64,000 bases of DNA. Origin: Paenibacillus sp. FSL K6-1096. Lineage in GTDB: Bacteria > Bacillota > Bacilli > Paenibacillales > Paenibacillaceae. The stretch spans positions 3,286,001-3,350,000 of the forward strand of contig NZ_CP150274.1 in the NCBI RefSeq assembly GCF_037977055.1, written 5' to 3'. This document shows, piece by piece, positions 7,936 to 9,741 of this stretch. The stretch's first letter is position 1. Each line of letters begins with the position of its first letter. The notes under the pieces were generated by a model. The model was not told where the DNA came from, ran no database searches, and saw nothing but the letters and a program-made list of their open reading frames with translations. Both the position numbers and the translations under genes were made by a program.

Positions 7936-8013
7936 AGCCCCAAATGCGCTCTGCTCCCGGCATTCTTACAGTCTTCCCCTCCGCTTGTTCACCGTATCTA
8001 CTAATCCATTCTA

Positions 8014-8042
8014 TTGACCATTGGAATATTATCACATATTAT
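8014..8042 (+). promoter_or_regulatory. Promoter of the AloR-like gene
   Basis: TTGACC (8014-8019) and TATTAT (8037-8042) are 17 bases apart, 54 bases ahead of the start codon at 8096. The match to the sigma-A consensus is good. Confidence 0.65.
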
Positions 8043-8095: not shown

Positions 8096-9490
8096 ATGAA
8101 GTCTGCAACCACGATTCGCGATCAAATAACCGCTTATTTGTCTGAACAAGGTCTGTCCATTAATCAGTTCGCCATAGCTTCAGGAATCAATTCCGGCACA
8201 CTCAGCCGTGTAATCAAAGACCAGCAGCCGATTGCCATGGATCATCTGGAGCGGATCACCCGTGGAATGAACCTGCCGGAGGATTACTTCTACAGCTTAT
8301 ATGTGGACGAGTGCTTTCACCGTTCTCCCCCTACCTGGCGGCGTCTGCGGCCGTTCATTGAACGTTCTGCAGCGCTTGGCCGGCTTGACTGCGTGGAGCA
8401 GGTCGTTCAGAGTCTGCTGGATAATCTGGTCTATGCCCCCATGCTGTTTGAGGTTGCTGAGGGGTTATTTGAGCAGGGACTCTGGCAAGCAGCGGGACTG
8501 CTGTATAAGAATGTGAGTCTCAGTGAGAAGTATCAGAACTCCGAGCGGCTGGCCATCTGCCAGTACCGCCTGTTCAAGATTGGGCTGGGTGACGATCAGA
8601 GCGTGAATCTGCGGGAGGCCATCCTGTTCGAATGTTACATCGACCGCCTGAATGAGGCTGACCAGCTGGATGGATTGAAGGACCTGCTCGATGTCTATTA
8701 CTCCCTGCAAAAGTGGGCCAAGGTGAACGAGCTTGCCGAGAAGCTGCTCCTTTTAGCGACTCTCCGTTACAATTTACACCACCGGTCGAAACGAAAAGAA
8801 GAGCATGAAAGAAATCCGCGAAGCCCGCTATATGTATATATTCTACGTTCTCATCTCTTCCTCTCCAGTGTCTGTATGGAGTACGGAGACTATAAGGCTG
8901 CAATTGAACATGTACCTCAATATACCGAAGTCAACTGGATACAAGAAAAGGATGATGAAGCGAAGAGAATTATAGCCCAGTTTAGGGAGTGGGGTACTGC
9001 CAATATCTATTTATACCGATTACTTGATGGACAATTCGAGGTTCTGGCTGATTATGTCGAATATATCTCCACCAAGCCGGACGAGATTTTCACGGCGATG
9101 TACAATATTGTAAAATCAGCGAATCGGTACGGATGGAATATTGACCCCATTCTGGAGAGGTTCTCTGACCATATTCCTTACAGAACTTATACATCCGAAT
9201 TCGGTGAGTACAACCAGCAGGTGATGGTTGATAAACATACCCGGTTTCTTGCTGAATTAGCTGCCTATTATCTGCATAGTAATAGAACTGAAGGGATTAC
9301 TTTTATCCTGCAATGTTTGGAATCCTCTGCTAAAATTAACAACGAGAGTGTAGTCATCACCTGTGTCGATCTGTTTGAGCAATTCAGGTATATAGCAGGA
9401 GATGACGAAATCGAGAGATACAAACTTCTAATCAGAGAGGTGCACAAATCTAATGAGAAAAAGACTTTTCAAGCTTCTAGTTCTGTGTAG
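8096..9490 (+). CDS. AimR/AloR-like peptide-responsive regulator
   Basis: A 464-residue cytoplasmic regulator. Residues about 8-60 form an XRE-type helix-turn-helix (LSINQFAIASGINSGTLSRV). The rest is a long all-helical repeat region of TPR type, as in AimR, Rap and PlcR family receptors (for example LDCVEQVVQSLLDNLVY, WQAAGLLYKN, GDYKAAIEHV). Such proteins change DNA binding when a short imported peptide occupies the repeat groove. The context is decisive: a 46-codon secreted-peptide ORF (9453-9593) overlaps its 3' end in another frame, the usual receptor/pro-peptide layout. This N-terminal type resembles the AloR family described in Paenibacillus. Target genes are unknown. Confidence 0.82.
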   Translation: MKSATTIRDQITAYLSEQGLSINQFAIASGINSGTLSRVIKDQQPIAMDHLERITRGMNLPEDYFYSLYVDECFHRSPPTWRRLRPFIERSAALGRLDCVEQVVQSLLDNLVYAPMLFEVAEGLFEQGLWQAAGLLYKNVSLSEKYQNSERLAICQYRLFKIGLGDDQSVNLREAILFECYIDRLNEADQLDGLKDLLDVYYSLQKWAKVNELAEKLLLLATLRYNLHHRSKRKEEHERNPRSPLYVYILRSHLFLSSVCMEYGDYKAAIEHVPQYTEVNWIQEKDDEAKRIIAQFREWGTANIYLYRLLDGQFEVLADYVEYISTKPDEIFTAMYNIVKSANRYGWNIDPILERFSDHIPYRTYTSEFGEYNQQVMVDKHTRFLAELAAYYLHSNRTEGITFILQCLESSAKINNESVVITCVDLFEQFRYIAGDDEIERYKLLIREVHKSNEKKTFQASSSV

Positions 9491-9593
9491 TTTGGCCGCA
9501 GTAATTAGTTCCACCGCAGGAGCTTTTGAGATTATAGCAAGCAGTAATACACAATACTCACTTCAAACCATGTCTCATGGTATTGGAAGTTAA
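9453..9593 (+). CDS. Secreted pro-peptide, AloP/AimP-like pheromone
   Basis: A 46-codon ORF too short for ordinary gene calling. It starts at ATG 9453 with AGAGAGG about 12 bases upstream and overlaps the receptor gene by 38 bases in the +1 frame. The product has a textbook signal peptide: basic MRKR, hydrophobic core FKLLVLCSLAAVISS, and a cleavage site after AGA. The exported tail is about 20 residues, ending TMSHGIGS. In AimP and Phr-type systems the active pheromone is the C-terminal 5 to 10 residues, released by extracellular proteases, so the predicted signal is within the last six to eight residues here. Processing is inferred. Confidence 0.75.
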   Translation: MRKRLFKLLVLCSLAAVISSTAGAFEIIASSNTQYSLQTMSHGIGS

Positions 9594-9724
9594 ATGACCC
9601 TTTCGCCCTTAACTACATATTAGCATCCCCAATGCCTGGCCCCAATCCGGAACGCGATAAAAGGGTCAGTGACGCTATTGCCAAGTTGAAAAAGGAACGT
9701 TCGTCTGCCCGGGTTCGCCAATAA
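9549..9724 (+). other. Open frame without start after the pheromone gene
   Basis: Frame 3 of the plus strand is open from the stop at 9546-9548 to TAA at 9722-9724 and encodes a protein-like tail (NDPFALNYILASP, then a charged helix DKRVSDAIAKLKKE). The only ATG is at 9632, giving 30 residues without a clear ribosome binding site. It could be the remnant of a longer peptide gene fused by frameshift to the upstream signal sequence, or a short unknown gene. A terminator follows immediately. Confidence 0.35.
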
Positions 9725-9741
9725 AAAGGCGGGCCTTTTTT
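9723..9741 (+). terminator. Terminator of the receptor/pheromone unit
   Basis: AAAAAGG (9723-9729) pairs with CCTTTTT (9734-9740) across a four-base loop and ends in T residues. It closes the plus-strand unit and may also act on the minus-strand gene that ends at 9764. Confidence 0.6.

Follow-up and report, generated by a model that had tools for sequence, protein, structure and literature searches.

The RRNPP regulators are TPR peptide receptors encoded beside exported pro-peptides, and published criteria for recognizing them ask for an HTH/TPR receptor of 250–500 aa next to a Sec pro-peptide of 10–100 aa (PMC10075063). Among the described members, the AloR–AloP pairs of Paenibacillus polymyxa are closest to the locus discussed here. 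In the AloR13–AloP13 pair of P. polymyxa ATCC 842, a chromosomal gene encodes an HTH+TPR receptor, and the small ORF behind it overlaps its end and specifies a signal peptide. Mass spectrometry established that the tails of P. polymyxa AloPs are secreted and processed at the C-terminus (Voichek et al. 2020, PMC7425212). The hexapeptide SHGRGG lowered the AloR13-driven expression of the downstream spo0E-like gene from a concentration of 10 nM and nearly shut it off at 5 µM, and a spo0E-like gene lies downstream in only 6 of the P. polymyxa Alo systems (PMC7425212). The founding study defined AloR homologues by an MMseqs2 search with E below 1e-10 over 250 aa, and its first scan had missed divergent TPRs (PMC7425212). 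The window, a stretch of 64,000 nt from the chromosome of Paenibacillus sp. FSL K6-1096, contains a pair of genes, aloR and aloP, that we interpret as an AloR–AloP cell–cell signalling module working in the manner proposed below, with a probability of roughly 0.9.

The receptor gene aloR occupies positions 8096–9490 of the plus strand and encodes 464 aa, predicted to fold into an N-terminal HTH (about residues 7–57) and a TPR superhelix. Curated libraries say little about the protein: Pfam and NCBIfam returned weak HTH matches only (HTH_3 at the N terminus with E 0.0014, below the curated cut-off), no Pfam TPR family matched, and no curated profile specific to AloR was found in the libraries searched. 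PHROG 2439, a transcriptional regulator family, matches at E 3e-7, and the AloR alignment profile finds HTH regulators in the PDB. An AlphaFold model built from an alignment of 60 sequences (mean pLDDT 87.4, pTM 0.79) displays a four-helix unit at the N terminus followed by a helical superhelix. Its structural matches (Foldseek, VIA-align) are TPR proteins, which include NprR with NprX (Z 16.3), RapI (Z 15.8) and other Raps, PlcR among the Foldseek matches, and also unrelated eukaryotic TPR proteins. As TPR matches are common, these results support the fold and the RRNPP type, not a single subfamily. NprR–NprX, PlcR–PapR and Rap–Phr resemble the window pair in combining a TPR receptor with an adjacent exported pro-peptide, but NprR, PlcR and Rap belong to different subfamilies from AloR, with no sequence match in the PDB search, and Rap lacks the HTH.

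The pro-pheromone gene aloP (9453–9593, plus strand; 46 codons) encodes MRKRLFKLLVLCSLAAVISSTAGAFEIIASSNTQYSLQTMSHGIGS. It overlaps the end of aloR by 38 bases (9453–9490) in a different frame, and its ribosome site GAGAGGTG (9435–9442, plus strand) lies within the aloR codons R-E-V, 10 nt 5' of the ATG. The aloR stop TAG falls within TGT AGT, the Cys-Ser codons of AloP; a CS pair is common at the overlap in AloPs, perhaps because the aloR stop may constrain these codons. By inspection and hydropathy score, codons 9453–9524 (plus strand) specify a predicted signal peptide, MRKRLFKLLVLCSLAAVISSTAGA, with a basic n-region, a hydrophobic core (peak hydropathy 3.0) and the end STAGA|FE. Cleavage there would leave an exported pro-peptide of 22 residues, FEIIASSNTQYSLQTMSHGIGS (9525–9590, plus strand), whose last six codons (9573–9590, plus strand) are predicted to specify the mature pheromone SHGIGS, by analogy with SHGRGG of AloP13 (PMC7425212). 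In the AloPs of relatives a Q-[TP]-M sequence commonly precedes the [GSTN]HGxG block, which makes M|SHGIGS the likely cut in the window peptide. AloP itself had no convincing match in Pfam or NCBIfam. The first-pass annotation judged the gene short enough for gene callers to miss; of three plasmid homologues inspected, aloP is without annotation in two and a 'hypothetical protein' in one, in a gene table that is incomplete. The layout given here bears out most of the first-pass annotation, which had proposed a 464-residue HTH–TPR regulator (an ORF now confirmed at 8096–9490, its fold supported by the model), a 46-codon ORF overlapping it by 38 bases in another frame, a ribosome site of its own, cleavage after AGA and an end in SHGIGS. 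The exported tail, which it had counted as 20 residues, needed correction to 22.

What kind of system does this pair represent? We searched 396 Paenibacillaceae genomes with the AloP13 tail, SYFHNITIGNGSQITVSSHGRGG, which matched in three, one of them at 100%. The alo13 locus of the latter genome contains published alo13 primer sequences, and by these matches the genome is P. polymyxa or very near it. Against the full-length AloR-like loci of this genome, window AloR aligns with E-values from 3.5e-128 to 3.2e-67 and a best identity of 44%; AloR13 itself, a distant paralogue, is 34–35% identical (E 2.7e-82). These values lie inside the published homology cut-off, though the search method differs. 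The receptor and the pro-peptide, whose Sec export is predicted, also have the sizes and arrangement of an RRNPP pair, and AloP agrees with its family in size (46 aa as compared to 32–50 aa), in overlapping position and in having an N-terminal hydrophobic helix. Three features of the sequence, namely direct homology to AloRs, an overlap that is conserved across loci and a peptide terminus of the SHGxG type, make the pair a member of the already described AloR–AloP family and not a new kind of system. It differs from AloR13–AloP13 in the overlap (38 bases as opposed to 50), in the predicted hexapeptide (SHGIGS as opposed to SHGRGG) and in the absence of the downstream spo0E-like gene found at alo13. 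A nearer counterpart is the Alo system of P. helianthi, with a 75% identical receptor, a –38 overlap, an SHGIG core and the promoter box described below, but this system sits at another chromosomal place and its peptide is one residue longer, with AloP ending in SHGIGGS.

A spo0E target downstream of window aloP was considered and rejected, as none of the five Spo0E-like genes of the genome is at this locus; three of them adjoin other alo loci or an alo remnant. One such locus (L074, G000:C1:3176500-3186500) carries an aloR–aloP pair whose peptide ends in GHGTGA, followed by a spo0E-like gene; beyond it stand two receptors in tandem, both with a shortened C terminus, for which no peptide was found. 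At a second (L083, G000:C1 about 137156-137736), a broken aloR remnant is followed by a hydrophobic small ORF ending in AHGWGT and a spo0E-like gene. In Brevibacillus phage SecTim467 (L202), an AloR-like gene of 28% identity is overlapped by a small ORF, which is annotated as hypothetical, and has a spo0E-like gene immediately upstream of it. An ORF at 9632–9724 (plus strand) was entertained as an AloR target gene and discarded: it is the 3' remnant of an unrelated small gene that is longer in a relative, 29 of its 30 residues being shared with the 3' end of an ORF at the related locus L143, and it stands outside the alo system. An inverted repeat, TGACCCTTT...AAAGGGTCA, flanking 9595–9669 was likewise rejected as an operator, its right arm being a coding part of the same remnant, also present in L143. 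A terminator-like hairpin at 9711–9736 (plus strand) is the likely end of the aloR–aloP transcript. Gene content beyond aloP varies among related genomes: a DUF559-domain gene is found in three relatives and is degraded in a fourth, G102, which also has a further ORF and a small gene. Of this small gene, the final 30 codons are all that the window retains.

Evidence for the small gene comes from comparison across 93 distinct AloR-family receptors, drawn from the same genome and from relatives. Behind 69 of them lies a candidate hydrophobic small ORF with an ATG start, though a few of these candidates, for example that of L026, are probably due to chance. The start falls at exactly –38 in 54 of the 93, and a Shine–Dalgarno-like sequence precedes aloP in all 54 of these loci, as GAGGTG in 43. 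An HGxG end with at most four further residues terminates the small ORFs of 55 receptors. Of the 44 receptors that share at least 58% identity with window AloR, 37 have a peptide; 35 of these peptides start at –38 and all 37 have the HGxG end. First-order Markov shuffles of the same regions produced a hydrophobic ORF in 4% of cases, and none of 4,650 gave an ORF that ended in HGxG. Outside the overlap, closest-pair comparisons of aloP gave a pS of 0.254 and a pN of 0.147; this excess of synonymous change indicates that the aloP frame is read and under protein-level constraint. On these comparisons aloP is more than a chance ORF. At two loci (L026 and L035) two similar pro-peptide ORFs stand in tandem behind one receptor, with ends such as HGWGGL and HGWGSGEY, or DHGIGS and NHGFGS.

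A quick tree of the 93 receptors with SH-aLRT support groups window AloR with nine others in one clade, and every peptide present in this clade carries SHGIG or SHGVG. Among the 25 receptors of the sister clade, the peptides have mostly GHGxGG, GHGxGD or NHGxGG. AloR13 is far from window AloR, on another branch, so that the S-H-G start common to both peptides is either old or was reached twice. Over 55 peptides the H, the G and the second G are constant, by search pattern as well as by prevalence, while the H is mostly preceded by G, S, T or N and the third residue is widely variable. It had been expected that the last six residues would vary among paralogues; this holds for the residue before H and for x, and does not hold for the fixed H, G and G of HGxG. 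The comparison suggests a specificity hypothesis, in which a fixed HGxG frame is combined with a variable residue before H and a variable third position.

Is the window peptide the one that its receptor senses? Four related genomes (G113, G114, G102 and G115) have a receptor at the same site, with flanks that are 85–99% identical: a spermidine-type ABC operon borders the receptor at one end, methyltransferase and menaquinone-biosynthesis genes at the other. Two of these four orthologues keep an aloP, with a peptide ending in SHGVGGS. The other two (L143 and L144) lack it and have an identical truncated receptor end, which points to a single aloP deletion before the two lineages parted. Their receptors differ by a dS of 0.33 and a dN of 0.043, and the ratio of 0.13 suggests that the receptor has been kept under constraint without the peptide; these two receptors are candidate eavesdroppers. 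In G092, where the copy is at a different chromosomal place, aloP is frameshifted. The losses in two of four syntenic orthologues, together with this frameshift, imply that some lineages can do without the peptide. The first-pass annotation had named relatives without the small ORF, or with a frameshifted one, as evidence that would count against its reading; such relatives do occur, yet as secondary losses. One may then ask whether window AloR, though functional, is in effect an orphan or an eavesdropper, its own aloP decaying or unused and the peptides of paralogues or other strains being sensed instead. Receptors without a partner are common in the family (24 of the 93 sampled have no candidate peptide), and the constrained receptors at L143 and L144 speak for such a course. 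However, window aloP is intact from its ribosome site and start codon through the signal peptide to the HGxG end, and aloP in general is under constraint at the protein level, so that we consider this alternative improbable.

A phage arbitrium system, AimR–AimP, in a prophage or prophage remnant is still less credible, and we assign it a very small chance. The gene order and the HTH+TPR receptor are identical in kind to those of the Bacillus phage systems, and AimR aligns with nearly the whole AloR model (Z 13.6, residues 4 to 456, at an rmsd of about 18 Å). By contrast, neither phmmer nor profile searches with AloR found an AimR chain at E up to 1. AimR–AimP is phage-borne with an aimX target, whereas the window pair lies among the menaquinone-biosynthesis, methyltransferase and spermidine-type transporter genes just described, in the same order in four relatives. 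The close homologues of AloR are chromosomal paralogues, with one distant homologue only among 50,697 phage records. Judged from its flanks, the locus is a conserved chromosomal, non-prophage site. The initial label of an AloR/AimR-type receptor is upheld in its first half by the homology to P. polymyxa AloRs, the layout and the SHGxG end, while AimR is a likeness of layout and fold and not of family or biology. A further alternative treats the small ORF as an open frame that arose by chance near the 3' end of aloR, as its shortness, its overlap and its absence from some relatives might suggest. It is refuted at the family level and very improbable for this copy, since dozens of loci show the –38 start together with a ribosome site and an HGxG end, the end motif never arises in shuffles, and synonymous changes outnumber non-synonymous ones outside the overlap.

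For the preferred reading, an AloR–AloP module, we propose the following mechanism. The promoter at 8012–8042 would drive joint transcription of aloR and aloP, and translation of aloP would start from its own ribosome site inside aloR. Gene structure, conservation of the overlap and of the ribosome site, constraint on aloP and homology to the family are the parts of the proposal that comparative sequence analysis has shown. The Sec pathway would then export AloP and signal peptidase would cleave it, after which an extracellular protease would free the C-terminal hexapeptide SHGIGS and an oligopeptide permease would bring it back into the cell. There SHGIGS would bind the TPR groove of AloR and switch the HTH regulator at target promoters; if AloR13 is a guide, the switch would turn an activator into an inactive form. 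For export and processing, as for the identity of the peptide, its uptake and binding and the sign of regulation, the proposal draws on the published alo13 case.

The aloR promoter offers a further clue to regulation. A promoter scan placed the box TATTGACCATTGGAATATTAT at 8012–8042 (plus strand), with a –35 TTGACC at 8014–8019 and a –10 TATTAT at 8037–8042; the box overlaps the –35 and the spacer. Upstream lies a second element, GTTCACCGTATCTACTAATC (7987–8006, plus strand), of the form GTTCAC-N8-CTAATC; both recur before the aloR genes of the clade. The distance from the start of the GTTCAC element to the core (TATTGA) is 25 bp in 14 loci and 35 bp in 13; the two spacings differ by one helical turn, which is what the binding of an activator to DNA would lead one to expect. 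Across 40 aloR promoters the 35-nt core has a mean pairwise identity of 78.7%, compared with 53.4% at third codon positions of aloR, and identity falls to 46% in the 25 nt after the core and to 31.5% in a region further upstream. Core variants also precede many, not all, aloRs of only 38–50% identity, at positions near –81 to –88. In the window's genome the exact core has two sites and the exact GTTCACCGTATCTACTAATC pattern has two, all of them 5' of aloR genes; the non-aloR near-matches inspected are mostly within other open frames, look like chance and were dismissed as further sites. Autoregulation of AloR through the box is a natural guess from these sequences. No box was seen by eye before the spo0E genes at alo13 or at two spo0E loci of the window's own genome, which makes AloR a less likely binder of the box. 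We put forward only tentatively, as a conjecture more likely wrong than right, that the two elements form an operator through which AloR and its peptide exert auto- and cross-regulation, that in this clade about ten channels with an xHGxG code are joined in one network, and that receptors at this site which have lost their peptide eavesdrop on neighbours.

What are the implications for the AloR–AloP family? With the window pair, a clade of the genus in which no tested Alo system was found gains a clear signal together with its receptor, and SHGIGS is close enough to the AloP13 peptide for immediate synthesis and assay. One chromosomal site offers a natural case in which the peptide has been lost and the receptor retained. 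The box is a candidate cis-element for the control of aloR, with no mention in the founding AloR paper. If the tentative network is real, near-identical promoters would link about ten peptide channels that are told apart by one or two residues of xHGxG.
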